Shown here in pieces: positions 8,517 to 60,325 of a stretch of 64,000 nucleotides of DNA (position 1 is the first letter of the stretch; every line of letters begins with the position of its first letter). The translations under genes and the position numbers were made by a program. Below the pieces are notes generated by a model, which was not told the origin of the DNA, did not search any database, and saw only the letters and a program-made list of their open reading frames with translations. The DNA comes from Pteria penguin (lineage: Eukaryota; Mollusca; Bivalvia; Pterioida; Pteriidae), in NCBI GenBank assembly GCA_035048485.1, contig CM068586.1:49288933-49352932 (forward strand), given 5' to 3'.

Positions 8517-8701
8517 TGTTTTTTTTTTTTTTTTTTTCTATTAACTCATTGGTTAAACGTAATTTAATGTGTGATGTAAAATACCCATGGGTAAAGAAAG
8601 GAAAGATCAAAAACAACATTATCAAGTTAGTATTTATCTACATAGTGTCTAGTTCTATTCAATCAAGAAATGAAAACATTCTCATGTATTTTCACATAAT
8701 T

Positions 8702-9024
8702 CACTACTGGGTCCAAACACCCCTGAGAATCCCGTTTTTCACTGCAAAACTCTGCAACACCCTGAAAAACTCCGAAAAACACTGAAGTCTGCCTGAAAAA
8801 CACTGAAAAAATCTGACAGCCCTGATAAACACTGAAAAACTCTGAAGTCTACCCTGAAAAACTCTGAAAAACACTGACGACCCTGACAAACTCTGCAAAA
8901 CTCTGAAAAACTCTGCAAAACTCTGAAAAACCATGAAAAACACTGACACCTGCTGCAATGCCCTCCGGCCGTGCGATCGCGGCCTCGCGTACTTCTATAC
9001 GGTCCCTTTTATAATATAAGCCCT
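8702..9024. repeat. Left terminal arm with subterminal CTGAAAAAC-type array
   Basis: About twenty imperfect 9-10-bp units of the form CTGAAAAACA or CTGCAAAACT, interspersed with CTGACGACC and CTGAAGTC variants, occupy 8,735-8,960. They are followed by a GC-rich unique block (GCCGTGCGATCGCGGCCTCG) and TTATAATATAAGCCC. A repeated transposase-binding motif is the family-level analogy; binding itself is inferred. Confidence 0.7.
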
Positions 9025-11136: not shown

Positions 11137-11407
11137 GGGCTTATAGAAGGGACCGTATAGAAGTACGCGAGGTCGCGATCGCACGGCCGGAGGGCATCGC
11201 AGCAGGTGTCAGTGTTTTTCAGAGTTTTTCAGTGGCGTCAGAGTTTTGCAGAGTTTTTCAGGATCGTCAGTGTTTTTCAGAGTTTTTCAGTGTTTATCAG
11301 GGCTGTCAGAGTTTTTCAGGCAGACTTCAGTGTTTTTCAGAGTTTTTCAGGGTGTTGCAGAGTTTTGCAGCGAAAAACGGGATTCTCAGGGGTTTTTGGA
11401 CCTAGTG
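11137..11407. repeat. Right terminal arm, inverted copy of the left arm
   Basis: Begins GGGCTTATAGAAGGGACCG, then CGCGAGGTCGCGATCGCACG, then ~18 units of GTTTTTCAG in the opposite orientation to the left arm, closing on GGATTCTCAGGGG and TAGTG. The open frames across it are repeat artefacts. Confidence 0.7.
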
Positions 11408-14167: not shown

Positions 14168-17100
14168 TTGTTGAAGTTAGAAGTCCGGCGTCAGATAAAA
14201 TTATACATACTGACTAATGCGTCGCCCATTATAAAAAGGCCTCAAACTGCAATGTGCAATGACACATGCATAGCAGTTAACTTACGTGTCCCCGAAATTA
14301 ATTTAAATGACGTTAGAAAACAAACATTTGTGGCAAGCTCTAATAATGAACTCTGGTATCAACATGCGAATGGCTTCATAAATATCAGGCCCTGTAGGGT
14401 TAAATTAGCTGAACTAATTAAAGATCACCAATTCTCCCCTTATGATTGTAAAATATCTAAATGCGGAACCAAACATTGCAAAACTTGCGACATCTTAATT
14501 ACAGACAATTCTTTGACGAGTAATTTTACATACTTTTAATACGCATAGTTTTGACCATTTAAATTGTAAGAGTTCATATATTGTATACGGTATTGAGTGT
14601 TCACGTTGTAGGTTAATATATACTAGAGAGACAAAGGGAGAACTCCTAACAAGAGTATCAGGTCACAGGTCCAAAATAAATTGTGGCGGAAACCAGTTAC
14701 TCTATCGCAACTTCAACCAACCTGACCACTCGATCCTCTCGATGAAAATTAGAATTATACAAAAAATATATCATCCCACAAACAATACCAATTTGAGCAC
14801 TCCTTTTCGTCAGTCATGAGAAGAATACTGGATACTCGGCACTGCTTCGCCCTATGGATGCAATGACAATATTAGTAGTATTAGTAACCTAACTAGTCCT
14901 GCGTGTCAATCAGTTAACGTACTCGGTTTATTTAACGAAAGCCAGAAGAGTCATGGTACACGCAAATACAACAAACCTGAAATACATAATATTTCCTTTG
15001 ATTCTCTTTGCCATATATAAATAAACCTTTGGGAATTCATCACACTCGTACAAAACTTTATTCTATTTCACACAGAAAGTTACACGAGTTGTACATATCG
15101 TCCAGACAACGTATATATACTGATATAAGCTCTGCAGAGTATAGACTAGATGGCATTATTATGAACATATCGACCACTAGACTTTTTCGTCCCGTCAAGT
15201 CAGATATATCTATGGAGAAATCTAATCGCCCTTTCACCAAAAGCAAATTTACAAATAAAGGCATTGATTATTTAAAGTTTGGCCAAATTTTAAATCATAA
15301 GTCTGTATTAGAGAAAATACCTCCATATTTCAAAAACAAAAATCCGCCATGTATTTCCTATAGCTACACACCATCAGTTGCATCCAAAATTTATAATTAC
15401 AAAAGGTTTCTACAGAGTTTTGATCTTAGCAACTTTGCATGCCAACCTCAACCGCGTGTTTCTCATCTAATTTAGTATATTCTACTTGTGGCCATATCAT
15501 TAGTGGTGATCTTGATATTGTTAAAAAACACCAAATTAAGAAAATCTTTACTTAAATGTCGAAAATACAGAGAACCCAGATCATTCACATGGGGCCAAAA
15601 CTTTCAGAATATTATCAACTGCTGCGAGGAATATGCTACACGATGGGCGAAAAGAGAGAAATTACAGGTCGACACTCTTTCGGAATGGATAAAATCTATT
15701 GCAGTAGTGCTGAGATCATAAAATAAAAAAATTACAAGGCTCTGTAAACACCAGATCTATTTTTAAAGATCCTGATGTAAGAGAAATTACCTTTCTCCAA
15801 GAACATTATATCATTATACCAGCAGATAAAGCGTCTAGTAATTATACATTTACTTGTAAGAAATATTACTTTGACAGCCTAGTGAAAGAATAAGGATTAA
15901 ATTCAGCTCCAGGAAAGCCTACTTATAGTCTCACGAACTTTTCGATTTCAGAAATACTTGAAAGTCATAAATCTGTCCTCAATACGTTTGGTATGGATAC
16001 AAATAAAGTAAGTTTAGAACTTCCGTATTTGTACTGCATTCCAAAAATGCACAAAAATCCTTACAAACAACACTTTATCACTGGTTCTTCGAAGTGTTCC
16101 ACAAAATCTGTATCGAGGCTACTCACAAAAATATTATCAGAAATTAAATCTGGCCTTCATGGGTATTGCGAAACAGTATATTCCAAAAGTGGAATTCATC
16201 AAATGTGGATCCTTAAAAATTCAAAAACATCTATTAGAACATCTAAAATCAAAAAGTTTTACTAAAATTCACTCCATTAAGTCTGTTGACTTTTCGACTC
16301 TTTACATAATGATCCCTCATCATAAATTAAAAGACAGATTACCGGAAATCAATCAAAATGTATTTACTAGTAAAAACGGAAGCCGCAAATTCAAATATAT
16401 AGGTATAGGTCATGATGAAACGTACTGTTTTAGGGAAAATTCTGATTCCAAAAATAAATACAAATAAATATACTGAAACAGGTATCATGCAGATGTTGAA
16501 CTTTCTTATCGATAACATTTTTGTGGTGTTTTTCGGCAAATTGTCGGCATTCCAAGGGGCATTTACTGTGCCCCGCTTCTGGCTGACATATTCCTTTACT
16601 CATACGAGGCTGAATTCATTCAGTCTTTGCTTTCGCAAGGAAAGAAACAATTGGCTCTTGGCTTCATTTTCACTTACAGATATATAGATGACTTGCTTTC
16701 AATTAATAATCCTTCATTCGCGGATTACCTTAGCAAACCATTCGGCCACGAGCATCACTGAAGAGACATAAGTTGTCGAAATGCGCATCTGGTGCACAAA
16801 AGTAAAAGGTATATATGTTCTATATTTATTATAACCACTAGGCCGGTGTCACTGCTGGTGGACTGATAGTTCCCGAGGGCATCACAAGTCTGGTTTTCAG
16901 TGCTTATGTACTGACTTGAAATATATACTTAAAATTTTCCGTCATGAAATTATGTAAATCACTCTTAAAACTAAGAAGTATCTCCCTCATGCATAGTTCT
17001 GTCCTTAGATTGATTTTTTGGTTCAATTTTTGGGTCATTTTGGTTTCAATACTGCTCTTCAAATATTTATATATGAGAATTCCAACCATTCGGCCACGAG

Positions 17101-20989: not shown

Positions 20990-23400
20990 TTTACGGTGTT
21001 TAAAATGATTGTGGGTCATACCGTCAATGTCGAAGGCATTGATTATTTTAGAATCCTTCGATATGAAATTATCGGAACCTTTGACCCTGGTAAGTTAATA
21101 CAGGATACGTATTGTTGAAGTAAAAAACGAAGAAGTACCGAAAGGTAAAAGACATATTACAGAATTTAGATATAATGTCTGAATAAAATCTGTTACCGAA
21201 AGATTTTCGAAGTTTATGATACCTAACTTTAAGTCGTAAGTGATTTGTAATTATTTTGCTTTAAAATCCAAAGATACTGCAAGCTTTAGCAAACTGAACC
21301 AATTAACTAATATGGATATTATATGATGGAAGTCTAGGGATATCACCATCACCACTGAAAAAATCAAAAATCGTTATAAACAAGAGGCCTAAATGGGCCT
21401 ATATCGCTCACCTGAGCACAAATTGCTTATTTACAATAAAATGACAGCTCAATTTCAGTAGAACTTTTTGCTTTTTTTCTACAAGACTTTCTGTAAGGTT
21501 TGGTGATATTTTGTGCAGTCGTCTTGAAGTGTCCAAATTGCGTCAACCAATCAGAGCCAATGGCGGTCATCTTGGATTACGGATCGGCACGAAAAAACAC
21601 AAAATTTGTAGAGGACCTTGAGTACTTATTTCCTATGAGGTTTGGTGAAATTCTGTGCAGCGGTTCTGGAGAAGAGTTCGAAAATGTGTCATCCAATCAG
21701 AGCCAATGGCGGCCATCTTGGATTACGGATCGGCAAGAAAAACACAAACTTTGTAGAGAAATTTGAGTACTTACTTCCTATGAGGTTTGGTGAAATTCTG
21801 TGCAGTGCTTCTGGAGAAGAAGTCCAAAACGTGTCAACCAATCAGAACCAATGGCGGCCATCTTACTTCGTATGAGGTTTGGTGAAATTCTGTGCAGCCC
21901 TTCTGGAGAAGAAGTCGAAAATGTGTCAACCAATCAGAGCCAATGGCGGCCATCTTGAATTACGGATCGGCAAGAAAAACACAAACTTTGTAGAGGACCT
22001 CAAGTACTTACATCCTATGAGGTTTGGTGAAATTCTGTGCAGTGCTTCTGGAAAAGGAGTCCAAAACGTGTCAACCAATCAGAGCCAATGGCGGCCATCT
22101 TACTTTATATGAGGTTTGGTGAAATTCTGTGCAGCCCTTCTGGTGAAGAAGTCGAAAATGTATCAACCAATCAGAGCCAATGACGGCCATCTTGGATTAC
22201 GGATGGGCACGAAAAATACAAACTCGGTAGAGGACTTTGAGTACTTACTTCCTATGAGGTTTGATTGAATCTGTGCAGCGCTTCTGGAGAAGAGTTCGAA
22301 AATGTGTCAACCAATCAGAGCCAATGGCAGCCATCTTGGATTACGAATGGGCACGAAAAACACAAACTTTGTAGAGAACCTTGAGTACTTACTTCCTATG
22401 AGGTTTGGTGAAATTCTGTGCAGCGCTTCTGGAGAAGAAGTCGAAAATGCGTCAACCAATCAGAGCCAATGGCGGCCATCTTGGATTACGGATCGGCAAG
22501 AAAACACAAACTTTGTAGAGGACCTCAAGTACTTACTTCCTATGAGGTTTGGTGAAATTCTGTGCAGCGCTTCTGGAGAAGAAGTCGAAAATGTGTCAAC
22601 CAATCAGAGCCAATGGCGGCCATTTTGGAAAACAGATCGGCACGAAAAACACAAACTTTGTAGAGGACCTCAAGTACTTACTTCCTATGAGGTTTGGTGA
22701 AATTCTGTGCAGCGCTTCTGGAGAAGATGTCCAAAATGTGTCAACCACTCAGAGCCAATGGCGGCCATCTTGGATAACGGATTGGCATGAAAAACAAGCA
22801 ATTGGTAGAGAACCTTGAGTACTTACTTCCTATGAGGTTTATTGGAATTCTGTGCAGTCGTTCTGGAGAAAAAGTCCAAAATGTGTCAACCAATCAGAGT
22901 CAATGGCAGCCATTTTGGATTACGGATGGGCACGAAAAACATAAATTTGGTAGAAGACCTTGAGTACTTGCTTCCTATGTAGTTTGGTGGAATTCTGTGT
23001 AGCGGTTCTGGAGAAGAAGTCGAAAATGTAGAAAAACTAACGACAGACGACAGACGACGGACGACGGACGGTGGTGGATCACAATAGCTCACTTGAGCTT
23101 TCGGCTCAGGTGACCTAAAATGATATATGCTTGTATGGCTATTGTTGCTAATAATTCTTATATTTAAGAAAAGTGTTTCATTATCTGTTTAATTGAAGTT
23201 CAGGTGGGGAAATGTCAGTAATACATTTTTTAATTCCAGGATTATCGATTACTAAATCATATATATTATAATCAAAGACATCATCAAGATATCTAGAAGT
23301 GTTTTAATCTTATCAATAAGGTCTAATGGTTTCGAGGTTTGCACAGAATGTTTAAAATCCCTCTCAGAACAAAAGGCCTTTTTATACCTCTCATAAAAAT
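20990..23400 (-). pseudogene. PLE-B reverse transcriptase fragment, copy B5, split by a tandem-repeat element
   Basis: The minus strand at 23,400-23,120 corresponds to the motif C region (FERDF-like, then an SRYLDD-like block with frameshifts), and 21,345-20,990 to the C-terminal GDIPRLPSY and YHKLRKSFG blocks. The same nucleotide order occurs uninterrupted in copy B4 (12,080-11,470). The 1.7-kb element at 21,383-23,118 therefore sits inside this copy. Like B4 it has TAA in the YIS-LV block. Confidence 0.75.
21383..23118. mobile_element. Tandem-repeat-bearing non-autonomous element (pearl/Helitron-like)
   Basis: The left end AGAGGCCTAAATGGGCC and CGCTCACCTGAGCAC precedes 11 full units of ~145 bp (unit starts at TTTGG: 21,499; 21,641; 21,786; 21,878; 22,023; 22,115; 22,260; 22,404; 22,548; 22,693; 22,838) and a partial one at 22,983. 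Two units are only 92 bp. After the array come ACGACAGACGACGGACG microsatellite units, GATCACAATAGCTCAC, a TGAGC-TTTC-GGCTCA hairpin and AGGTGACCTAA. A hairpin shortly before CTAA and no evident TSD fit a Helitron-type 3' end. Pearl-type bivalve elements share this array-plus-microsatellite plan. Frames through it are not coding: 145 is not a multiple of three. Confidence 0.7.
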
Positions 23401-24612
23401 CTTATTCGTTATGTCATAATCCACTGACCTGTATGTTTACTGACTTATATTGTTTGCTTTGTTCACTGTTGTGTTACTTTTTCACAAATGTACTGCCATG
23501 ATGTTAAGTTATACGTTTATCTAAATAAGTTCATGAAATGCCTCTTTGTGGGGCATATTTGGAATCGATTCCAGGTGTAGGGCCTCCCCTATTCCTTTTT
23601 ATGAACAGTATTATAATAGTAAGATAAGGATATAGATATGGATTATTTCAATTTGAAAAAAAAACGAGGTTTACTTGCTGAACTTTATTGGATTAAACAT
23701 CTACAAACCCCATATCCCCTTAGTCTCAATGACCAAATTTTTCAACAAGGTAACATTTCCTCTTACCATGACAATAGCGGTCTGGTCACTAAGATCAGAC
23801 GATAAGAGGAATCACAGGTTCGCACAATCGTTGCCGTATACGTAATGGCAAGCGCTAAAAACATGGTAGGTTCAAATGGTCATTACACGATCTACTACGG
23901 ATTGCCGGAAATAATGGTCGTCACGAATTTCTACATGCATTATCATCTTTTCCGGTCACCAGATTAAAACCTATCCTGGATGAGGCTGATCTAATAAGTT
24001 TAAGTTATACGGATTGATTTAGACTTAAAATAATGATAGCATTTTCATATGACAAACGTTTCCAACGTATACCATCGCTTCCTCCTAAATCACAATTTAT
24101 CAAGGTTAAATTTATAAAATAAAGGTTTAAATCTGCTTAATTCTTCTAATATTTTTCGTTAACATAGAGTCAAATCTAAAATTCCTCAGTATTTCTATAA
24201 TCTTGAATCAACATTTGCTATCAGTACAAAAAAACCTATTAGAAATCTTAATTTTAATTACTAATCAGTCATATTAAATCTTAATTCTATTAACTCTATT
24301 CCATCGTCCTGTTCATGCAATAATTGTTAATTCATTTTTCAGCCTGCGGGCCATATTATTACTGGTGATCTTTTCTGACAAATATTTACGATCATTTTTT
24401 AAATAAAGGACCAAAGTATAAATTACCTTCCCGGATAGATTTTACCAAATGCCGGGATATTAAACACTGATGTAAAAAAGATGTAAAAACACATGCCTTG
24501 AATGACTGGAAAAGTGAAATCTAAAAAATTATCGATATTCGCGTCGATAATTTTACAAGTAATACACATTTATTCAAACAACCACATTATATACCAGTCC
24601 AGTCTACGAAAA

Positions 24613-24893
24613 TTGATTGATTGATTGATTGATTTTTGTTTTACGTCACAGCTCGAATATTTCACGTATATGATGACGGCATTTGCCGGATGCGGGGCAT
24701 ACAAATTTTGACCTTTGCAACGGACCTACCCGAAGCAGTGAGGGATCTTTAACGTGCCATGCATACCACGACACGGGGCCTCTGTTTTTACTGTCTCATC
24801 TGAAAGACATGACACCGGCTTGACCACAGTGGGACTGACTCGAACCCCGGCCTCCCGATCAGGAGTCTGACGCGATACCACTAGGCCACGCCT
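24613..24893 (-). mobile_element. tRNA-derived SINE, family 1, copy 1b, inside PLE-B3
   Basis: Minus-strand copy with the tail visible on the plus strand as TTGATTGATTGATTGATTTT, the central CACGTTAAAGATC domain and the promoter region at 24,840-24,893. A perfect 12-bp TSD AGTCTACGAAAA (24,601-24,612 and 24,894-24,905) interrupts the PLE-B coding sequence between VQST and KKK codons. The insertion therefore postdates PLE-B3. Confidence 0.92.
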
Positions 24894-26694
24894 AGTCTAC
24901 GAAAAAGAAAATGGCTGATTTACACAATACTTATGTCTTCGTACTTGCTGACAAAGCAGCTAATAATATTATCATTATTTCAAAAATACATTATATTACA
25001 GTTCTTAAAACAGAAATGAACTCTGCTTCTACGTATGTTGAAACCCCATTGTTTAAAGACAAGATCCAATCTGATCACTGTAAAGCTATGTGCGACTTCA
25101 ATTTAAGCATTAATAAAAAATGATCATGCAACAATGTTCTGGCTTCCGTAACTACACAAAAACCCATATATATCACTTTTATATAAAATTCTAGTCATTG
25201 CTCTACAACTGTGCTTTCTAAACATATTATCTCCGCTCTTACAGCAGTTAAAGACCATGTTGTCAAGTAATGTAACGCTGTATTTAGCAATAGTAACGTC
25301 AATTACTTTTGGTCTATCACAATTTTAAAGAAGTCATTGAAAAATTCCGTTTGAGAAATTTTGAGGCTAATAAAGTTTCTACTTTTGATTTTTCGACAGT
25401 ATATACCTCACTACCTCATGACTTAATGAATAAAATTGTTGTCTCATACGCTGGTGTTTCAACAGAGAGTCTAAATCATAACTCATTTACTTTAGTTACA
25501 TCTGGATTTTTCTCTAACAAACAATATGATAATTATAAATATTCGACTTGTACTGGGTCGTGTAATGCCATCACATTTTTGATGGATAATATTCATGTAT
25601 AATTTAATGGCAAGACTTATCAAGACAATATTGGGATTCCTTTGGGCAGTAACTGCGCTCCGCTTATAGCAGATTTATGTTTCTACTGTTATAAGAGAGA
25701 CTTTATGCATTCTATTCAAACTTCTAAACGTTTCGACCTTATTGATAAGTTCAATGACACTTCTAGATATCTTGATGATATCTTAGTTATCGATAACCCC
25801 GAATTTGATAACTATATCACTGGAATTTATCCATATGAACTTCAATTAAACAAAGGCAACACCTCTGACCAGGAAACACATTTTTTACTTAAATACTAAC
25901 ATTAACAACAAAACTGATACCAACATATATGATAAACGTGATGACTATGAATGTCCTATTGTAAAATTCCGTCATCTAGATGGTGATGTTCCCTGACTCC
26001 CAGCATATGGTATTTATATTAGTCAATTGGTTTGGTTCGCGAGAGCCTGCACTAACGTTATGGGTCAAAAACTCTCAGATTACGTTTAAACTTTCCCCGG
26101 GTTATAGATATCAAATACCTCGAAAACCTTTTGGTAAATTTTATAGATCTTATTCAGACATTTTATCTAAATTCGGAAATGTGACTTTTGAACAATATGT
26201 ATCCATCCCTCTACAACCCAATGCAGACTTTTATTTGAGCGTTGCACGCTGACTAACCGGGCAGTGAGAACTCTATTACGGACCTTGTCCAAACCTTTTC
26301 AGAGGGGACAAGGTCGTGATCCTCGTTCCCTCTGACTGTTATTCGACTCTCCTATTGATCAAGGATCTGAGCTCGCTTACAAACGGGTAGAGCACAGTTT
26401 ACTTATGTTGATGTCGCCTTACATATTTTTGATAGCAACATATTACTTCATAAAATTTTTTGTATGTAATAAATTTGCATTACCTCTCTTCTTTAGAAAC
26501 CTGTTGATCCTTGTTCTATATTAGAGGATTATATATAGATTTTTAAATGTGTGCCCTTTGATTGTGCTGCTTTTGCGGTGAGTGGAAAGGTGGGTGCCCG
26601 TAAACCGATTAAACACACCAATCGAATGACGTTTGTTATTCAATTAACAGTCGTAAGTCGATATCGTAATCGCAGCATAATCGAATATTGTTGT

Positions 26695-27035
26695 AATAAA
26701 TATAGAACATATATACCTTTTAATTTAGTGCACCATATGCGCATTTCGACAACTTGTGTCTCTTCAGTGATGCTCGTGGCCCAAATGTTTGGAATTCTCA
26801 AAATATATAAGTATTTGAAGAGTAGTGTTGAAACCAAAGAATCTGTCTAAGGACAGAGCTATGCATGAGGGAGATACTCCTTAGTTTTAGAGTGATTTAC
26901 TTAATTAAAGCGAAGAAAACTAGAACTATGATGCCCTTGGGGACTATTAGTCCACCAGCAGTGACATCGGTATAGTGGTTATAATAAATATAGAACATAT
27001 ATACCTTTTAATTTAGTGCACCATATGCGCATGTT
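26695..27035 (-). mobile_element. DR element, copy 2, inside the PLE-B3 tail
   Basis: Minus-strand relative of 16,736-17,173. Repeats at 26,695-26,780 and 26,983-27,035 share ATAGAACATATATACC and TTAGTGCACCATATGCGCAT; the second is truncated. The interior shares CCACCAGCAGTGACATCGG with copy 1 (reverse complement). It splits the PLE-B tail between ATATTGTTGTAAT and GTTGTTCCATGTATATTC; GTTGT on both sides may be the TSD. Confidence 0.6.
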
Positions 27036-31125: not shown

Positions 31126-32290
31126 ATAATATACTGTTTTATATACAATTTTTTGGCAATATTTGTATAAGTGATAAGCCCAAGTCTGCTTTACAAGTGG
31201 ATAGGTTTAAGACAATGTTAAGATAACGCAATCCTTTTACTAAAATAATCAACGATTACCAACTAATTGCTTTGTTATTAATGTCTCTTTGAAGGTTAAT
31301 CCGTTGGTTTCGGCATTGTTCAAGAAGGTGTTGTTTTGCAGTCTGTTGTTTTGTAAGAATATATTCATAACTTTGTCCAATTGAGCTTAATAAAGTAATT
31401 CCTCTGAAATTTCTTTTGAATGATAAATTTCAAAATTTAACTTTACAGTACAGACAGTTATGAGTATAAAAATCTATCAAATTATTTACATTTATATAAA
31501 TGATAGTACATGTCTACGAGCAATATATTTCAAACTTTCCCTGTTGGAATGGAAATGTGATGGTCTTGGTCCCTTGGTAAAAATTGCACATGTTCTTTGA
31601 CGTCATTATCATCTCGTTATCTTTTATACTAAGAAATTGAAATGGATCAAACACATATCGTTATCAAATCACTGTCTTATGATCTCCTCGTACAGATTAA
31701 ATCAAGAAACAAGTTCGAAGAAATTCCTTAAGACGTGCACTCAGTTATAGGGCAGATATTTTATTAACCATTCGTGTGTATAACATACTACCTTGTTGAG
31801 ATTCGCAGCTTTGCAGCAAAGACAATGTTGGACTAAATAAAAGTGCAAACAATAACTTAAAAACATTCTTGATATAATAGATTCCACTCAAAAACGTTAA
31901 TATAATTATCAACAATAAATTTTAAAACCAGATGACCTCATTGTCAACGCAGTTTTATCGAGTCTTGATGCATGTACGCTTGTGTGGGTAGAAATGTAAG
32001 TTTGTGTCTGTGTGGGGGAATGATGTCTATATAATAGTTTCGAAAATAGTCAATTTTTGCTGTGACATAGTTATATGGATTAAGATTATTTCATATGATT
32101 GCCATAAAACAAAAAAGGATATCTATTTCAATTTGTGTAAATTCAATAATTTAGATGAGTCAAATAACTTCCATCTATCTCAGAGTTAATGAGAATTCTA
32201 TTCATTGCCCAATTTCATGGGGTTTTTTATACACTGTGGTGAATTCCCCTCTTAACTGAAGTAGGTATTAAGGAGGAGTTGTTGACTATG
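31126..32290. other. Anonymous interval
   Basis: AT-rich with no supported gene or repeat boundary. Confidence 0.35.
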
Positions 32291-33700
32291 CATTACTGTG
32301 CGAAAACACCTTTGAGAATCCCGTTTTTCCTGATAAACTCTGTAAAACCCTGAAAAAACACTTAAGTCTACCCTGATAATCCCTGGCGGCCCTGAAAACT
32401 ATCCAAAACTCTGACGACACTGAAAAACTCTAGAAAACACTGACGACCCTGAAAAACTGTGACGTTACTGAAAAACTTTGGAAAACACTGACACCTACCG
32501 CGATGCCCTCTGGCAATGAGGTCGCGGTCTCGCGACCTTCTACACGGTCTTTTCTATAAGCACAATGTCCATTAATGTATATAAAATGTGATGAGTATTA
32601 AAATTAGTAGTGAATTAAAAAAAAAAGGAGAGGAAAATAAGTAAAATATATATTTTATTTCTCTGTACGATGTTTTGACGTACAATTACTTTAATGATAT
32701 TCTAAAAATTAATTTTACTGATGCATGGTTCCTGTTCTGACTTACGTAACTGAGCCGGTAACTCCTCTTTTTTCTTACGTTTGTAAAACTCACAGTATGA
32801 TAAAATAAATTACTAAATTAAATCAATTTTAAAAAAAGCCAAAGAAACAAATGAGAGAGAGAGAGAAAACAAATCCAGCAGAGGCATACAGTACTACAAA
32901 GGCTTTTCTTACCGAGATTTTTATATACATTTATCTTTGGTTTTTTTCAGATTTAAATGCATTTACGAATATTCCTGGTAAATATCAGTTTTATAACTGT
33001 GTATTAAAATAGTGAAGGAGAAATAAGAAAAAAATAAGTAAATAAAAAAAAAAAACCAAATAATAAAAGACTTATACAACAAAGAATTTTTAAAAGGTTA
33101 CAATTCTCTAGAACTATAAATAAATTTCAACCAATTTCAGATTATAAATAAATGTAATAATTAACAAAGTTTTAAAGAATAAATGAATGAATAAATAAAT
33201 AAATGAATAATAGATAAATGATATTTGATTGTGATCATTACCTATAAATCTTCTACGAAAAGCGAGATTAATACACCAGTCCAGTACTGATAACAAATGG
33301 ACCACAACGGAAATCGCTTGTCATTCATTTTAAATAACGCAATGCTCTCTATATCATTTGCATAGCAACTTTTATAGAGACTGCACCGATGTTTTGTCAT
33401 GTGATGACCTTTAGGATAAACCCCCTATTTTTACCTATAATTTTCACACAAAATTATAATATTCCACATGTAATTTAAACTTTGTTTTTATTATAACAGC
33501 GTAATATAACAAAGTTCAGAGGACAATATCTTTAACTTAAATTTCATTCGAATGACATACATACATTTTGTCCTATAAAATATTTAAGCGATTACATATT
33601 CACTCGATATTCAATAATGTTGAAATAGCATATTTTATTATATCACTTCTTACTTAATCTGCATGTAACTGTATCCATTGAAATGATGCTTTATCTTACA
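32291..33700 (-). mobile_element. CACTA-like element, copy 2 (partial)
   Basis: Begins CATTACTGTGCGAAAACACC, then TTTGAGAATCCCG and a CTGAAAAAC-type array to ~32,490, then the GC-rich block and TCTATAAGCAC. The interior is collinear with the reverse complement of copy 1 from 11,407 down to ~10,150: shared landmarks include AAAGGCTTTTCTTACCGA (32,907), GTTCAGAGGACAATA (~33,512) and ATTCGAATGACATAC. Only one arm is present; the other half is absent or replaced by MITE sequence. Confidence 0.65.
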
Positions 33701-38002: not shown

Positions 38003-40496
38003 ATTTACCCTTTTGGTCTCAACGACCAAATATATCGACAAGGTAATATTTCTTCTCGTCAGAATAAGATCAATATTTTTACATTAAGACATAAAACTAT
38101 TAGAAAACGTAGGTCACATGGTCGTCGTCGTAATCGTAACATCAGAAAACGTAATCGTTTAAATAGGTCATTAAACGATCTTCTATTTATCGCAAAAAAT
38201 AATGGCCGTCATGAACTTTCGCATGCACTATCCTCTATTCCGATAAATAAATTGAAACCTATCCTTGACGAAGCTGATCTTCGAAGTTCTGATTGATATA
38301 AACTCAATTTGATTATTTTATTTTCATATAATAAACTCTTTTCTCGTATTCCGTCTCTTCCACCCAAGCAGCAATTTCTCAAAATTAAATCTATTAATAA
38401 AGGCTTCGATCTACTTAACATTTCTAATATTTTCCGTGATCATAGAGTCACATCTAAAATCCCCCAATATTTTGAGAATTTAGAACCTCCATTTATTTGT
38501 TACCAGTACAAAAAGCCTATAAGAAATCTTATTTTAAATTATAATAAAGTCACATCTAACCCTGATGTTTCAGACTCTATTCCTTCGTCGTGTTCTTGTG
38601 AAAATTCTAAATATATTTATAAACCGGCAGGTCATGTTATTACTGGTGACCAAAACTGTATTTCGGACAAGAAATTGCGCACCCTTTTTGGAAAAGGACC
38701 TAAATATAGGTTACCGTCCAGGATAGATTTCAATAAATGCCGTGACGTTATAGAAGATACTTTAACTACATATTGTAAACGTTGGTGTAAAAAAGAACAG
38801 GTAAAGATTCATGCTCTTAATGATTGGAAATTCGAGATTTTAAGAATTGTCGATATCCGTATTAAGAACTTTACGGAAAATCCGCATTTATTTCAACAGC
38901 CTAATACATTGACGACAAATTCTATTAAAAAGAAGATAGCTGACTTACATGCTAAATATGTCTTTGTTCCCGCTGATAAAGCAGGTAGTAACATAATAGT
39001 TGTTTGAAAACTATATTATATTGAAGTACTTAAAAACGAATTAAACTCCACTCATACATATGTGGAAAGCCCTACCTCAAAAGAGAGCACCTTGCACGAT
39101 CACCTCATGACCATGTCCGACTTCAAAAGTAAAACTGATAAATCTGATCTACCAACCATATATTGGCTCCCAAAACTACATAGAAGTCCATATAAATCAC
39201 GTTTCATATCTAATTCTAGCCACTGCTCTACCACGGTACTATCGAAACATATTACGTCTGCTCTAACTGCTATAAAAGATCATATTATCAAATATTGTGA
39301 TGTCGCATTTCATAATAGTAACATCAATTACTTTTGGTCGATTAAAAATTCTCATGAAGTTATAGACAAACTTCTTTCGCTAAATTTCAAAGCGACTCAA
39401 ATTTCTACATTTGACTTTTCTACACTTTATACATCTCTGCCTCATGATTTGATTAAAAGCAAGTTGCTGTCTCTTATACAATGGTGTTTTCACAGAGAAT
39501 CTAAAACGTACATATGTACTTCCAATAACTCGGGATTCTTTTCCAACAAACAATATACTTCATATAAATACTGGACTTGCAAGGAATTATGTAAAGCACT
39601 AGATTTTCTCATGAATAATATTTTTGTGCAATTTGATGGCAAGATATATCAACAAATAGTTGGGATTCCTATGGGTACTAACTGCGCGCCTCTGATAGCA
39701 GATTTATTTCTTTATTGTTATGAGAGGGATTTTATGGTTTCTATTCAAAAATCAAAACGTTTTGACCTCATTGACAAATTTAATAATACTTGCAGATATC
39801 TGGATGACATTTTGGTGATCGACAACCCTGAATTCGAACAATTTATATCAGAAATATATCCACCAGAGCTCACATTGAATAAAGCTCACATTGAACAAAA
39901 CTTGAGATAAATCTACACCTTTCTTAGATTTAAACATCAAAATTATCAACCACCTAATATATACTAATATTTATGATAAACGTGAGGATTTTGGACTTCC
40001 TATTGTAAATTTCCCTTACTTGGATGGCGATATCCCTCGACTCCCATCATATGGTATCTATATATCTCAATTAGTTCGATTTGTCAGAGGCTGCGCCGAT
40101 GTTTTGGACTTTCATAAACGAAATTTACAAATTACTACGAAACTTTTAATTCAGGGTTACAGATATCACAAGCTAAGAAAAACATTTGGCAAATTCTTCA
40201 GATCTAATTCAGAACTTCTATCTAAATTTGGAAATATTTCTTTTCAACACTATGTATCCAATGGAATTTCCCATCCCATTTTTTACGGTGATCTCGTATA
40301 TAAACTAAGGAAAGTAAAAGGCTCCGATAACGTTATTTTATCATGTAATAAAATACTCAAACGTCTTTTAAATAGACAATATGACATTGAGATCATCAAA
40401 AAGACTATAGGTCTTGTATGTGGCCCCTCTACAGCCTTATGCAGACTTTTACTTGAACGTTGCATGCTGACTAACAGGGTGGTGGGGACTATATGA
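38003..40496 (+). pseudogene. PLE-B polyprotein (linker plus RT) with shared in-frame TGA codons
   Basis: Apart from two TGA codons (38,294-38,296 and 39,005-39,007), frame 2 stays open from 38,003 to 39,910. Seen in order: a basic segment (RKRRSHGRRRNRNIRKRNR), the CxC motif (SSCSC, Cys codons 38,591 and 38,597), PAGHVITGD, PADKAGSN, IYWLPKLHRSPYKSRF (residues ~33-48 of the 39,062 frame), motif A FDFSTLY (D118), motif B GIPMGTNCAPLIADL, motif C YLDD (246-249). After an indel near 39,890 the C-terminal block continues from 40,020 (LPSYGIYISQLVRF). RT residues are intact; the indel and missing N-terminus make it defective unless the TGAs and indel are bypassed. Confidence 0.85.
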
Positions 40497-41007
40497 CGGG
40501 CCTTGTCCAAACCGCTTTCAGAGGAGACATTGTCCTGAACCTCGTCCCCTCTGACTGTTAGTCGGGACTCCTACAGATCTAGGGTCTTCGCTCGCTTTCA
40601 GACTGGTAGAGCACGGATTATCATGTTGATGTCGCATATCTTTTTTATATCATTAAGTGTTTTACAATACCTGACATGTTTATATTTTATGACCTCTCAA
40701 TATGCGATACCTATTGACCCTTGTTCTTTACATGGAGGATTATTTATAAATTTTTAATTGTACGTCCTTTGATTCTTCTCTTGTTACGGTGAGTGGGAAG
40801 GTGGGCCCGTAAACCGGTTAACCACACCATTTGTTTGGCTTTTGTCAAATTAAATGACCGTCCGAAGTCGGTATCGTAATTGCACTACAATCAAATATTT
40901 TTGTAATGTGTTATATGTGCTAGTATATTATTTACATTCATGTATTGTATAGTTCCATGGTGACTTCTGCCACATAACTGAGCCAGTATTTCCTCTTTTT
41001 TCTTGCT
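38003..41007 (+). mobile_element. PLE-B copy B1, best-preserved PLE in the window
   Basis: 5'-truncated within the end of the endonuclease domain (PFGLNDQIY at ~38,010), then a nearly continuous coding region to ~40,496 and a ~500-bp 3' UTR containing CCGTAAACCGGTTAACCACACC (~40,810) and CATAACTGAGCCAGT near 40,975. A ~97% identical copy sits at 49,846. PLE-C sequence follows directly. Confidence 0.88.
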
Positions 41008-48903: not shown

Positions 48904-51900
48904 GTGTTCCATGCGAAACAGTATATTCCAGAAATGGAATGAATCAAATGTGGATATTAAAAATTCAAAAGAGTTGCTAGAACATCTAAAATCCAAAAAT
49001 TCTACTAAAATTCACTCCATGAAGTCTTTTGATTTTTCGACTCTTTACACAAAAATCCATCATCAGAAATTAAAAGACAGATTAGCAGAAAATATTCAAA
49101 ATTCATTTACTAGTAACAACTGAAGCCGCATATTCAAATATATAGTTATAGGCCATGATAAAACTTATTTTGTTAGGGAAATGTCCGATTCCAAAAATAA
49201 ATACACTGAAACAGATGTCATCCAGATGTTGAACTTTCTCATTGATAACATTTTTGTGGTGTTCGGAGGAAAGGTTTTTCAACACATTGTCGGCATTCCA
49301 ATGGGCACTAACTGTGCTCCGTCTCTGGCTGACATATTCCTTTACTCATACGAAGCTGAATTCATTCAGTATTTCCTTTCTCTAGGAAAAAAAGAATAAT
49401 TAGCTCTTGGCTTCAATTTCACTTACAGATATATAGATGACTTGCTTTCAATTAATAATCCTTCATTCGCGGATTACCTTAGAATCATCTATCCAAGTGA
49501 ACTGGAGGTCAAAGAAACCACAGAAAGTAATAATTCTACTTTGTATTTAGATATTATGTTGTCTTTCGACATTAATGGTCAATTGGACACCTCACCCTAT
49601 GACAAACGTGACGATTTCAATTTCGCTATCACAAACTTTCCTTTCATAAGTAGCAACATTCCATCATCGCCCGCATACGGCATATTCATATCTTAGTTTA
49701 TACGTTATTCCAGAGCATGTTCAAATTATAATGACTTTGTTCTGAGGGCCAGGCGACTTTCAGATAAGCTACCCAACCAGGGTTATGTGCTAAACTTGCA
49801 ACGTCACTGATATAGTACTATGGTCGTTACTAGACTCTTTTTACTCCTTGTCGATATTTGTATTAAGAACTTTACGGAAAATCCGCATTTATTTCAACAG
49901 CCTAATGCATTGACGGCAAATTCTATTAAAAAGAAGATAGCTGACTTACATGCTAAATATGTCTTTGTTCCTGCTGATAAAGCAGGTAATAACATAATAG
50001 TTGTTTAAAAACTATATTATATTGAAGTACTTAAAAACGAATTAAACTCCACTCATACATATGTAGAAAGCCCTACCTCAAAAGACAGCACCTTGCACGA
50101 TCACCTCATGACCATGTCCGACTTCAAAATTAAAACTGATAAATCTGATCTACCAACCATATATTGGCTCCCAAAACTACATAAAAGTCCATATAAATCA
50201 CGTTTCATATCTAATTCTAGCCACTGCTCTACTGCGGTACTATCGAAGCATATTACGTCTGCTCTAACTGCTATAAAAGATCATATTATCAAATATTGTG
50301 ATGTCGCATTTCATAATAGTAACATCAGTTACTTTTGGTCGATTAAAATTCTCATGAAGTTATAGACAAACTTCTTTCGCTAAATTTCCAAGCGACTCAA
50401 ATTTCTACATTTGATTTTTCTACACTTTATACATCTCTGCCTCATGATTTGATTAAAAGCAAGTTGCTGTCTCTTATACAATGGTGTTTTCACAGAGAAT
50501 CTAAAACGTACATATGTACTTCCAATAACTCCGGATTCTTTTCCAACAAACAATATACTTCATATAAATACAGGACTTGCAAGGAATTATGTAAAGCACT
50601 AGATTTTCTCATGAATAATATTTTTGTGCAATTTGATGGCAAGATATATCAACAAATAGTTGGGATTCCTATGGGTACTAACTGCGCGCCTCTGATACCA
50701 GATTTATTTCTTTATTGTTATGAGAGGGATTTTATGGTTTCTCTTCAAAAATCAAAACGTTTTGACCTCATTGACAAATTCAATAATACTTGCAGATATC
50801 TGGATGACATTTTGGTTATCGACAACCCTGAATTCGAACAATTTATATAAGAAATTTATCCACCAGAGCTCACATTGAATAAAGCTAATACTTGAGATAA
50901 ATCTACACCTTTCTTAGATTTAAACATCAAAATTATCAACCACCTAATATATACTAATATTTATGATAAACGTGAGGATTTTGGATTTCCTATTGTAAAT
51001 TTCCCTTACTTGGATGGCGATGTCCCTCGACTCCCATCATATGGTATCTATATATCTCAATTAGTTCGATTTGTCAGAGGCTGCACCGATGTTTTGGACT
51101 TTCATAAACGAAATTTACAAATTACTACGAAACTTTTAACTCAGGGTTACAGATATCACAAGCTAAGAAAAACATTTGGCAAATTCTTCAGATCTAATTC
51201 AGAACTTCTATCTAAATTTGGAAATATTTATTTTCAACAGTATGTATCCAATGGGATTTCCCATCCTTATTTTTACGGTGATCTCGTATATAATCGAAGG
51301 AAAGTAAAAGGCTCCGATAACGTTATTGTATCATGTAATAAAATAATCAAACGTCTTCTAAATAGACAATATGATATTGAGATCATCAAAAAGACTATAG
51401 GTCTTGTTTTTAGCCCCTCTACAGCCTTATGCAGACTTTAACTTGAACGTTGCACGCTGACTAACAGGGCGGTGGGGACTATATGACGGGCCTTGTCCAA
51501 ACCTCTTTCAGAGGAGACATGGTTCTGAACCTCGTCCCCTCTGACTGTTAGTCGGGACTCCTACAGATCTAGGGTCTTAGCTCGCTTTCAGACTGGCAGA
51601 GCACGGTTTATCATGTTGATGTCGCATATATTTTTATACCATTATGTATTTTACAATACCTTACGTGTTTATATTTTTATGACCTCTCAATATGCGATAC
51701 CTGTTGACCCTTGTTCTTTACATGGAGGATTATTTATAAATTTTTAAATGTACGTCCTTTGATTGTTATGGTGAGTGGGAAGGTGGGCCCGTAAACCGGT
51801 TAACCACACCATTTGTATGGCTTTTGTCAAATTAAATGACCGTCCTAAATCGGTATCGTAATTGCACTACAATGAAATATTTTTGTAATATGATATATGT

Positions 51901-52332
51901 TCTAGTATATTATTTATATTCATGTACTGTATAGCTCTATGGTGACTTCTGCTACATAACTGAGCCAGTAACTCCTCTTTTTTCTTCCTTATGATATCTC
52001 GTTATCCAGACTTTTAAATGATATTCTGGACTGAGACCGATTCCGATCATTTTGTACAGATCTGACACCTTCTATATTAGTAGGTTACCTAATTTGACTT
52101 CTTTATATATAAAATATATGTAATTTACACGATATGACTCTTTTTACTGGGTATATGTGACGGGTGTTGCTAGCAAATAAGAGATGTTCACTCTCCTGGG
52201 CACCTGATCTCACTCCATCATATGGGTACACATATGCTAAAGTAGACTTATTTTGTTATTTTCCACTGATTTTGTATGTCCTCTTTTTTTCACGATTTTC
52301 AGAGTTATGGTTTGGATTTATCCATCATCTTT
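48904..52332 (+). mobile_element. PLE-A copy A5, inserted in PLE-C2 and itself split by PLE-B2
   Basis: Flanked by a perfect 7-bp direct repeat ACATTGC (48,897-48,903 and 52,333-52,339) that is single in the reconstructed PLE-C target. Coding pieces: motif A FDFSTLYTKI (~49,026), GIPMGTNCAPSLADIF, YIDDLLSINNPSF (~49,430) and the C-terminal region to ~49,845; the remaining codons and 3' UTR resume at 51,986 (YDISLSRLLNDILD). Stops: TGA at ~49,122, TAA at ~49,396. 5'-truncated. Confidence 0.88.
49846..51985 (+). mobile_element. PLE-B copy B2, inserted in PLE-A5
   Basis: Near-identical to B1 from 38,850 on. RT core: IYWLPKLHKSPYKSRF, FDFSTLYTSLP, GIPMGTNCAPLIPDLF, CRYLDDILVIDNPEF. Stops include TAA at 50,006-50,008 (TGA in B1), TAA at 50,848, TGA at 50,893-50,895 and TAA at 51,439; a one-base deletion lies near 50,348. 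The 3' UTR ends at ~51,985 (TTTTTTCTTCCTT). Left and right borders share TCCTT as a possible TSD. 5'-truncated. Confidence 0.88.
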
Positions 52333-55919: not shown

Positions 55920-56412
55920 ATCTCAACTTTCAGAAAATTAGAAATGTGGATTATCACAGAAAGCGTTCAAATATAGTGTTTCATTTAACATGAAGCTGCA
56001 AGAAAATGCTGTTTCTGTTGTCTAGGAGTGTGTCAATGGAATTCCCAGGACAGGGGAAGAATCTGATTACCATAAAAGGGATGATTGCAAAGAAAAATAT
56101 TATGGAAAAATTATTTTCCTATCATTATGAAAAGATTTCTGTCAGTATTTGACACTTTGCAAAATAGAGCTTCTAATTAAAAACATGTACAACTTTGCCT
56201 CTATAAGTTTATACTATAAATGACAATTAGCGAAAAAGATGGAAAGAGGCAAATAGAAATGAGTTTGGCAGGAAAAATGAAAATCGGATAATGGTGAAGC
56301 CATGAAAATTAGAAATGAACAAAAAAAACAAAAAAGAGAAAGAAGATAAGAATGTATCGGGGAATTTGAGATTTTATGCATTTTCAGAAAATGATGAAAT
56401 GGAAATACTGAC
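55920..56412. other. Spacer between divergent ORFs
   Basis: AT-rich noncoding DNA; could hold a shared promoter. Nothing specific seen. Confidence 0.3.
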
Positions 56413-57890
56413 ATGGTAGACGGAGCAAAAAGTTTGCTGAGTAAACGAGTATCATTAGTAAGTAATGCCATGATACTACGGGAAGTCTTTCAGTTTTTTG
56501 TTTTGACTCACAATGGTGGTGTGTCTGACCAACAAAATGACGACGCTGACGACACAGAATCATACCAGCCATATTTGAGAAACCCAAGGGACAACTGCAT
56601 GGGGGACATGTGTCTCATTTCAGGATCATTAAAAAACGTTGTAGCAGGCATAAGTAATCATGGACTTCATTCTATGGAAAGGGTGGAAATAGAATGCTTT
56701 TATACTTGTGATCCTGTGCAGAAACTAACTTTGAAATGTAAAGATAACCACAAGATGAAAATTGACACATCTTCAAGACTTCCTGGTGGAAAGTTTTTGG
56801 TAAACTTGCGTGTCTTGCATGGTATCTATTCCTCTGGAGTAAGGTATACAAAGTTCAAACGTTTTCCTAAGTATACATATATGGGGATGATCTCGGAGGC
56901 AGCATTTTACGAGGTCCAGGATATGTTTTGTGATGCAACAGAAGCTACGGTTAAGGAATCCGTTTCCGACGCCCTGGACGACGAGGTTGGAACTACCGTG
57001 CTCGAGTGTGAAAATGTAGACGAATATAAAGGAATTACGATCATATCGGACGCAGGTCATGGATGACGAAAACATTCTCGTTTCTCAGACATTATATCGC
57101 TCGGGTATCAACCAAATAAAGTTGTCGGATATGTTGTTGTTAGTCAGGGTGACGATCCATGTAGTCAGCGTGACGAGCTACATAGTGTGAACAAATTATA
57201 TGAGGGGCTATCGGAGAGAGATGTGAATGTCCACATACATGGTCATGATAGAAATATATCAATCAATAATTACTTAAAAGCACAATATCCTGAAATGACC
57301 AATGCGAATGATACATGGCATGTTACAAAAATGTCGCATAAGAGCTGAAGAAGGTGTGCTCTGGTCCGCGGTAACAATACGGGAAGACATGGCATGGTGA
57401 GCTATCTGATAACAGTGCTTCCATAAAAATACATGCATATTATGCGATAAAAAATTGTGATGAATCGGGTGAAACATTGTGCGCCAACCTTAACAACATA
57501 ATCCCGCATTATCAAAACATCCATTCCAACTGCGCAGTGGAATCAAGATGTAGAATTGATCCAAACCATATTCCAAGTAGAGCCGGACAAAATTGCAATA
57601 AAACTTCTAGATGATGTGCTGAAAAATTTACAAATCTACAAGACCCCCACGGATTATTGCAGCTGCATAGATACACATTATGTTGAACCTTTCAATAATG
57701 CATGCCTTATCTATCATGACAAAAGAATAGTGTATAGTGACAAAGAATACAAAAGGACAGCGATGGCAATTTTAAATTGGAATGAAAATATCAACTGACA
57801 ATACACATCAATTACACACACAGAGGACCCGAGGAATTCACGTCGTAGAACGAGGAAAACAATTAAAACCGAAAACTGGAATTTTTTGTG
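56413..57890 (+). pseudogene. DDE-type transposase-like pseudogene (Kolobok-like, assignment tentative)
   Basis: An open frame of 217 codons from ATG 56,413 ends at a TGA (57,064-57,066) inside ISDAGHG-stop-RKHSRFSD, where Trp is likely ancestral. The same frame continues with VVGYVVVSQGDDPCSQRDEL, HIHGHDRNISINNYL and NDTWHVTK; after frameshifts, a later block (57,556-57,798) has DTHYVEPFNNACLIYHDKR. Asp in SDA, Asp in HDRN and Glu in VEPFN are plausible catalytic acids. I know this motif set from transposase-like proteins of marine invertebrates; superfamily is inferred. Terminal repeats not found. Confidence 0.6.
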
Positions 57891-58222: not shown

Positions 58223-60325
58223 AAAACAAAAACACCAAATTAAGAGAAATTCTACTTAAAGGTCCAAAATACAAAAAAAAAAAAAAAAAAAACCAAGATC
58301 ATTTTCATGGAGCCAAAATTTTGAGAATGTTATCAACTGCTGCGAGGTCGACACTCTTTAGCAATGGATAAAATCTATTGCAGTACTCCTTAGATAAAAA
58401 ATTATAAAATTAAAAGACTCTAAACACCAGATTCGAATCTATTTTTAAAGATCCTGATTTTGTCAGAGAACTTAACTTCCTCCAAGAACATATCATTACA
58501 CCAGCAGATAAATCGTTGAATATTTATGCATTTACTTGTAAGAAATATTACTTAAAGCCAAGTGAAAGTGAATTAGTTTTGAATTCAGCTCCAGGAAATA
58601 CTACTTATAGTCTGACGAACTTTTAGGTTTCGGAGGTACTTGAGAATCATAAATCTCTCCTCAATACGTTTGGTATTGACACAAATTAAATTTAGAACGT
58701 CCATATTTGTAGTGCATTCCAAAGAATACACGAAAATTCTTACAAACAACGCTGGTTTCTCGACGTATTCCACAAAATCTGTATCGATGCTATTCACAAA
58801 AATATTATCAGAAATAAAATCTGGCCATCATAGGTACTGCGAACCAGTATATTCCATAAGTGGAATTAATCAAATCAGGATGCTTAAAAATTCAAAATAG
58901 TTGCTAGACCATCTAAAATCAAAAAGTTTTAGTAAAATTCACTACATCAAGTCTTTTGACTTTTCGACTCTATACACAACGATCCGTCATTAGGAATTGA
59001 AGAACAGATAGTCAGAAAGTATTCAAAATGCATTTACTAGTAAAAACTAAAGCCGCATATTCAAATATGTAGTTAAAGGCTATGGTAAAACTTGACTCTT
59101 TCTACGGGGTATATGTGACGGGTGTTGCTAACAAGCAGGAGAAACTCACTCCCCGGGCACCTGATCTCACTTCATCACAGGGGTTCACATATGCTCTTCA
59201 AGTAGACATATTTTGTTATTTTCCACTTGTTTTTCATTTTCACTGATTTTGTATGTCCTCTGGTTTCATGAATTGTAGACTTATGGTTTGGATTTATCCA
59301 TCATCATTACATTACATTGTTAAGGAAATATCTGATTCCAAAAATAAATACACTGAAGCAGATGTCATCTAGATGTTGAACGCTCTTATTGATAACATTT
59401 TTGTGGTGTTCGGAGGAAAGGTTTTTCAACAAATTGTCGGCATTCCAATGGGCACTAACTTTGCTCCGCTTCTGACTGACATATTCCTTTACTCATACGA
59501 AGCTGAATTCATGCAGTCTTTGCTTTCGCATGGAAAGAAACAATTGGCTCTTGGCTTCAATTTCACTTACAGATATATAGATCACTTGCTTTCGATTAAT
59601 AATCCTTCATTCGCGGATAACATTAGCATCATCTATCCAGGTGAACTGGACGTCAAACCACAGAAAGTACATGTAGTAATTCTACTTCGTATTTAGATAC
59701 TATGTTCTTTTTCGACATAAATGGTCAATTGAACACCTCACTCTATGACAAATGTGACGATTTCAATTTCGCTATCACAAGCTGTCCTTTCATAGGTAGC
59801 AGCATTCCATCATCGCCCGCATACAGCGTATTCATATCTCAGTTTATACGTTATTCCAGAGCATATTCAAATTACAATGACTGTTTTGAGGGCTAGGCGA
59901 CTTTCAGATAAGCTACTCAACCAGGGTTATATATGTGCTAGACTAGACTAGACTAGAGGTACTATGGTCATTACGAGACTCTTATTACTCCATATGATAT
60001 TTAGTTATCCACATGTTTATATGATATTCTGGACCGATCATTTTACACAGATTTGACACCTCCTTTACTAGATGGTTACCTACTTTGACGTCCCCTTATA
60101 TAAATATATATGTGATTTACACGATTTCATTCTTTCTACTTGGAATATTTGATGGATGTTGCTAGCAAGCAGGAGATGCTCACTCGCCCCGGGCACCTGA
60201 TCTCACTCCATCATAGAAGGTTACATTTTTTTTTTTGTCAACTTGATTTTCATTTTCACTAATTTTATATGTCATCTGGTTTCATGATCTTCGGACTTAT
60301 GGTTTGGATTTATCTATCATATTTT
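58223..60325 (+). mobile_element. PLE-A copy A6, inserted in the DIRS recombinase ORF
   Basis: Begins at the linker (AAACACCAAATTAAGAG, matching 15,527) and runs through PADKSLNIYAFTCKK (Cys codon 58,537-58,539), decayed fingers, motif A at ~58,960, GIPMGTNFAPLLTDIF, YIDHLLS (second Asp lost) and the C-terminal region to the 3' terminus near 60,322. Interrupted by a PLE-A tail at 59,094-59,314. Multiple stops. Recombinase sequence resumes at ~60,345. Confidence 0.82.
59094..59314 (+). mobile_element. PLE-A tail-only insertion inside PLE-A6
   Basis: A 221-bp piece consisting only of the last part of the PLE-A 3' UTR (GACTCTTTCTACGGGG to ATTTATCCATCATCATTACA) interrupts A6 between GYGKT and VKEISDSKNK codons. 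It is an extremely 5'-truncated insertion of the same family. Confidence 0.8.

Follow-up and report, generated by a model that had tools for sequence, protein, structure and literature searches.

In-frame UGA codons in a family of Penelope-like elements are very probably decoded as selenocysteine

We propose that the in-frame UGA codons of PLE-B, one of two families of Penelope-like elements (PLE-B and PLE-A) in a 64-kb stretch of DNA (hereafter, the window; 33.7% G+C), are very probably decoded as selenocysteine (Sec), and we predict that a SECIS-type hairpin at the ORF's 3′ end directs this decoding. An initial annotation of the window had raised this reading for two TGA codons (here, sites 1 and 2), and it is now supported by the residues that relatives carry at site 2 and by SECIS matches. 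The claim concerns the family; all PLE-B copies in the window are decayed, none has every part intact and the copies themselves are dead.

Elements, codons and hairpins given below lie on the plus strand unless marked as minus. Copy B1 (38006-41007) is 5′ truncated inside the N-terminal nuclease region, with tblastn aligning the relative P0002 from residue 20 onwards; B2 (49838-51989), also 5′ truncated, is 95% identical to B1 across 38847-41007 (blastn). B3 (23659-26698) is much decayed, and B4 (13276-11505, minus) stops short of the hairpin region. The fragment B5 (21371-20601, minus) holds the 5′ half of the hairpin, and between it and a second fragment, B6 (23374-23123, minus), lies a tandem array (21486-23029) with spacings of ~144 and ~237 bases. 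A frameshift near 39890 in B1 and 50890 in B2, followed by a TGA at 39903 and 50893, respectively, is common to both copies, so B1 and B2 spread, or were duplicated, once the ORF was already broken. PLE-A is present as six or seven partial copies (judged by eye). Elsewhere, a repeat with many CTGAAAAACTCTGAAAAACACTGA-like units occupies 8699-9014, 11141-11406 and 32288-32559, and an open frame of 222 codons, lying outside the PLE copies, spans 56398-57066.

Judging from its sequence, PLE-B is likely a Penelope-like retrotransposon of the Naiad kind. Naiads combine a telomerase-like RT, a CxC motif between nuclease and RT, an N-terminal GIY-YIG domain and an IFD, and have neither a C-terminal nuclease nor a canonical hammerhead ribozyme. 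PLE-B likewise has a telomerase-like RT; in B1, this domain (39008-39889) is uninterrupted up to the frameshift common with B2 and matches RVT_1 with an E value of 0.00089, below Pfam’s cut-off. The CxC motif is present in B1 as Cys-Ser-Cys (TGT TCT TGT, all sense codons; 38591-38599) and in B3 as TGT..TGC (24310-24318). Among nine relatives scanned, an N-terminal GIY-YIG domain was found in three above Pfam’s cut-off and in one below it, with five lacking it; B1 and B3 begin inside that region. No Pfam family with an E value up to 0.01 was found in 39906-40493, and none of the nine relatives has a C-terminal nuclease. No hammerhead occurs among the 14 Rfam matches in the window up to E 10, a weak negative given that the copies are 5′ truncated. 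The RT part of B1 matched no solved structure by sequence up to E 1, and a viral contig collection and a first scan of genome contigs yielded no relative. Three protein searches, by contrast, gave 294 listed proteins (the best 120 of 445 matches, all 86 and the best 120 of 2,927). Naiad-like sequences filed under bacterial names (L003, P0083 and P0283; Thiodubiliella, Campylobacter and Thiodiazotropha) look like animal DNA in bacterial assemblies, and the occurrence of relatives in a Bathymodiolus symbiont MAG and under the name Thiodiazotropha would suit a bivalve host.

The frame of B1 (38003-39889) comprises 629 codons with no TAA, no TAG and exactly two TGA, at site 1 (38294-38296) and site 2 (39005-39007), both likely Sec, whereas order-0 shuffles of the bases of this frame contain on average 25 TAA, 10 TAG and 10 TGA. 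The frame between the two TGAs is thus intact, as had been claimed, and B1 is 69% identical to P0002 over 38006-39889, a span that includes both UGAs, pointing to coding conservation on either side of them. When the window codons were re-read by tblastn with three relatives, each codon named in the initial annotation was present: TGA at site 1 of B3 (24015-24017); at site 2, TGA in B4 (12751-12749, minus), TAA in B2 (50006-50008) and TCA in B3 (24980-24982); and, in PLE-A at the site 2 position, TGT (Cys) at 15855-15857 and 58537-58539. The predicted enrichment of TGA over TAA and TAG at the two sites was borne out, weakly within the window and strongly through the pattern of W and stops in the listed relatives described below. 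Stops at the two sites in the window are TGA in four of five cases and TAA in one, compared with 7 TGA among 27 stops elsewhere in PLE-B coding parts (tallied by hand, leaving out stops at and beyond the ORF end); the resulting one-sided Fisher P value of 0.037 is weak and no clean test, as the copies are related by descent and two segments of B4 overlap in different frames. The TGA after the frameshift (39903 and 50893) was considered as a third Sec site and rejected, given that its column is Ser in 145 listed relatives covering it and that it is reached only via the frameshift.

A SECIS search at the 3′ end of PLE-B, the check that had been proposed for the selenocysteine reading, returned SECIS_1 matches in three copies. 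The best, in B2 (51475-51538; 34.6 bits; E 0.004 for the whole window and 0.00023 in 3.6 kb), lies 0.4 bits short of the Rfam gathering score of 35; the match at the homologous place in B1 (40485-40548) reaches 25.5 bits (E 0.0043 in 221 bases and 1.2 for the whole window), and a homologous hairpin in B3 (26266-26330) reaches 17.9 bits (E 0.47 in 201 bases), with UUA rather than UGA in its core. A half hairpin in B5 (20915-20860, minus) also has a UUA core and, by eye, lacks the 3′ arm. An apical AAACC motif and a small extra stem are common to the hairpins of B1, B2 and B3, and those of B1 and B2 carry an AUGA core. None of the 14 Rfam matches in the window up to E 10 places a SECIS at PLE-A, and no SECIS_1 match was found up to E 1 in three Naiad-like loci (L001-L003) that have Cys at site 2.

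Helix II of B3 is fully paired (z = -4.27, with 0 of 200 shuffles folding as well), the B2 hairpin alone has a z score of -1.89 (7 of 200 shuffles as good) and the B1 hairpin, in which several positions are mismatched, shows no gain in stability over shuffled sequence (z = -0.69; 48 of 200 fold at least as well), with a 103-base stretch around it taking another fold. Across the three copies, standard pairs fill 90.2% of pair cells, versus 42-52% when the partner is slid, and covariation gave no signal over these copies (156 of 500 shuffles reach the score, which makes it uninformative). Two further lines were set aside as evidence: a crude SECIS pattern scan, which gave two matches in the window (one of them B2, with B1 missed) versus a mean of 0.98 per order-1 resample, and the pairing potential of helix II deduced from the read-through peptides of six relatives, in which 10-11 of 11 pairs are possible in all six but are equalled by 38 to 432 of 2,000 residue shuffles. 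Only B1 combines UGA at both sites with a UGA core, but its hairpin is weak and its frame is shifted; B2 has the best hairpin, yet TAA at site 2; and B3 has UGA at site 1, yet a UUA core and TCA at site 2. B3 and B5, with their UUA cores, perhaps represent a subfamily that lost Sec decoding before spreading.

In a functional element, the hairpin (that is, its AUGA/UGA core, AAA apical motif and small extra stem) would be expected to recruit the SBP2, eEFSec and Sec-tRNA of the host. Sec would then be inserted at site 1, upstream of CxC and 2.2 kb before the hairpin core (2,197 bases in B1), and at site 2, 1.5 kb before the core (1,486 bases in B1), where a strand is predicted to end at the start of the RT fingers and where the residue is normally Cys. 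In a structure model of P0007, the corresponding residue (359) is predicted to end a strand (351-359) ahead of a helix (360-373).

The residues of relatives at site 2 carry most of the argument. Among the matches listed, the column holds C in 69, W in 40, R in 2 and S in 1 of 112 proteins (aligned pairwise to P0002, itself counted as W), and Cys is confirmed at the DNA level in the three Naiad-like loci (TGC in L001, TGT in L002 and L003). A sense codon other than Cys, which the initial annotation would have taken, if present at both sites of intact young copies, as a sign of inherited nonsense mutations, is therefore not the rule at this site; the W entries are best read as UGA (see below) and 27 more ORFs stop there. 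These 27 are among 144 listed C-termini that fall within the family (within 3 residues), of which 41 are at the natural ORF end and 27 directly before site 2, with no other position holding more than 9; similarly, 31 of 160 listed in-family starts fall on the 12 residues following site 2. The second search had the region from site 1 to site 2 as its query and is thereby biased towards proteins ending at site 2, but P0092, a protein from the first search, also ends right before it. Some of the 27 stopping proteins share no more than 44% identity with P0002, which makes a stop at this position old.

These observations bear on the strongest rival explanation, according to which the TGAs are nonsense mutations passed down within a dead, perhaps trans-mobilized, lineage and the hairpin match is a coincidence. 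Such a history would fit the broken state of all window copies, the TAA and TCA at site 2 of B2 and B3 and the loss of the core UGA in B3 and B5. We nevertheless consider it improbable, as intact ORFs, from site 1 to site 2 and from site 2 onwards to the ORF end, occur in large clusters of relatives (for example, P0033 with 769 member sequences and P0039 with 499), the site 2 stop extends to proteins as distant as those noted above, the alternative residue is Cys and the SECIS match lies in the expected place. We give still less credence to selenium-free accounts, in which an ordinary near-cognate tRNA (for example, one inserting Trp or Arg) lets ribosomes pass the UGAs or in which the UGAs divide the product into separate proteins: the ORFs flanking each UGA are indeed intact by themselves, but the alternation with Cys at site 2 and the SECIS match would go unexplained, and a cut at site 2 would part the first conserved block of the RT from the rest.

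The simplest reading of W in the relatives, which we infer from protein sequences, is that it stands for UGA, with TGA ending the ORF for one gene caller and being translated as W by another. Both kinds of call also appear at the codon of the SECIS core (TGA in B1 and B2), where W is read in 26 listed relatives and the protein stops after GTI in 22. If there are two such callers, the stopping one should never show W at the first Cys of CxC, and this is what was found: W occupies that position in 16 of 26 listed proteins with W at site 2 and in none of 25 listed proteins that stop at site 2 (24 C and 1 L; Fisher P about 1e-6 on slightly smaller groups, 16 of 25 versus 0 of 23). Two close sisters, P0010 and P0020, are 85.6% identical over 555 amino acids and yet carry W and C, respectively, at site 2. 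Of the columns covered by at least 20 listed proteins, just two have C and W each at a frequency of at least 5%, namely site 2 and the first Cys of CxC. That W is instead true Trp (TGG), with the window TGAs arising by TGG-to-TGA decay, seems highly improbable even though the W-bearing relatives are known here from protein sequence and the two codons are one step apart, given that W also appears at the core codon, a TGA in both B1 and B2 and the ORF end in 22 listed relatives, and that 27 listed ORFs end exactly before site 2.

Reading W as UGA, we suggest that the first Cys of CxC is probably a further Sec site in sister lineages. Among the matches listed, this position is C in 80 and W in 28 of 113, the W-type relatives including P0005, P0010, P0013 and P0024. 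Site 1 is different in kind. Pairwise alignments give W at site 1 in 21 of 54 listed relatives, and the ORFs of 25 listed relatives begin at P0002 residues 124 and 126, just past the site; in a multiple alignment of the first 121 listed proteins, however, the column is Tyr in 22 of 34 and W in 3. A UGA at site 1 is therefore shared within the PLE-B lineage but does not replace Cys, and the argument from Cys is limited to site 2. There, the proposed alignment of UGA with Cys in a sister family holds (Cys in 69 of 112 listed proteins, in both PLE-A copies that cover the site and in L001-L003).

The ORF of PLE-B ends inside the SECIS core. The final in-frame codons, ACT ATA TGA, run into the hairpin, and the terminal TGA is itself the UGA of the core in both B1 (40494-40496) and B2 (51484-51486). 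Relatives keep this stop, with 22 of the 41 natural ends among the matches listed falling after GTI and the 26 W-type proteins being read through. More than 100 residues beyond the core UGA in P0002 and P0003 were examined as possible coding sequence and are taken as non-coding, as they drift apart and look frame-shifted by eye. We tentatively suggest, at slightly less than even confidence, that the element, as a selenoprotein with several UGAs, solves its terminator problem by having the stop within the SECIS itself, in that the core UGA alone would terminate and the upstream UGAs would specify Sec. A ribosome that reaches the core UGA is opening the recoding hairpin, and this UGA could thereby escape recoding; alternatively, the core UGA may also be recoded at some rate.

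Selenoprotein Naiads of clams and spiders were reportedly described by Craig et al. in 2021, so PLE-B adds to a known kind of element. Naiads resemble PLE-B and its relatives in the telomerase-like RT, the CxC motif, the N-terminal GIY-YIG domain (in some relatives), the absence of a C-terminal nuclease and the in-frame UGAs with SECIS, the Sec of the clam elements again being as reported. Neither a stop codon inside a SECIS core nor selenocysteine in Penelope-like elements appeared in the titles and abstract openings of the literature matches listed, a coverage that excludes the original Naiad paper; the doubling of the SECIS core as stop is thus a possibly new feature for which we claim no priority. 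Fowlpox GPX4, a redox enzyme, has a SECIS that is part of its coding sequence and lies within the ORF (PMC8310308, PMC6769590); it resembles PLE-B as a mobile or viral gene that relies on the Sec machinery of the host and whose SECIS reaches into the reading frame, but in PLE-B only the last codon of the RT ORF, the core UGA, lies in the SECIS. In Selenoprotein P and other multi-Sec proteins, several UGAs per message are recoded at a distance by a 3′ SECIS (PMC8704476), an arrangement similar to that of PLE-B, which differs in that a single hairpin was found and in that its protein is the polymerase of a retroelement.

Should the core UGA prove to be a working stop, PLE-B would illustrate how simply a single message can use the same codon for Sec and for stop. 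The family appears to alternate between Sec and Cys at a single RT position among closely related copies, a natural experiment on the benefit of Sec to a polymerase, and selenium-dependent retrotransposons would tie together nutrition, translational recoding and genome invasion.
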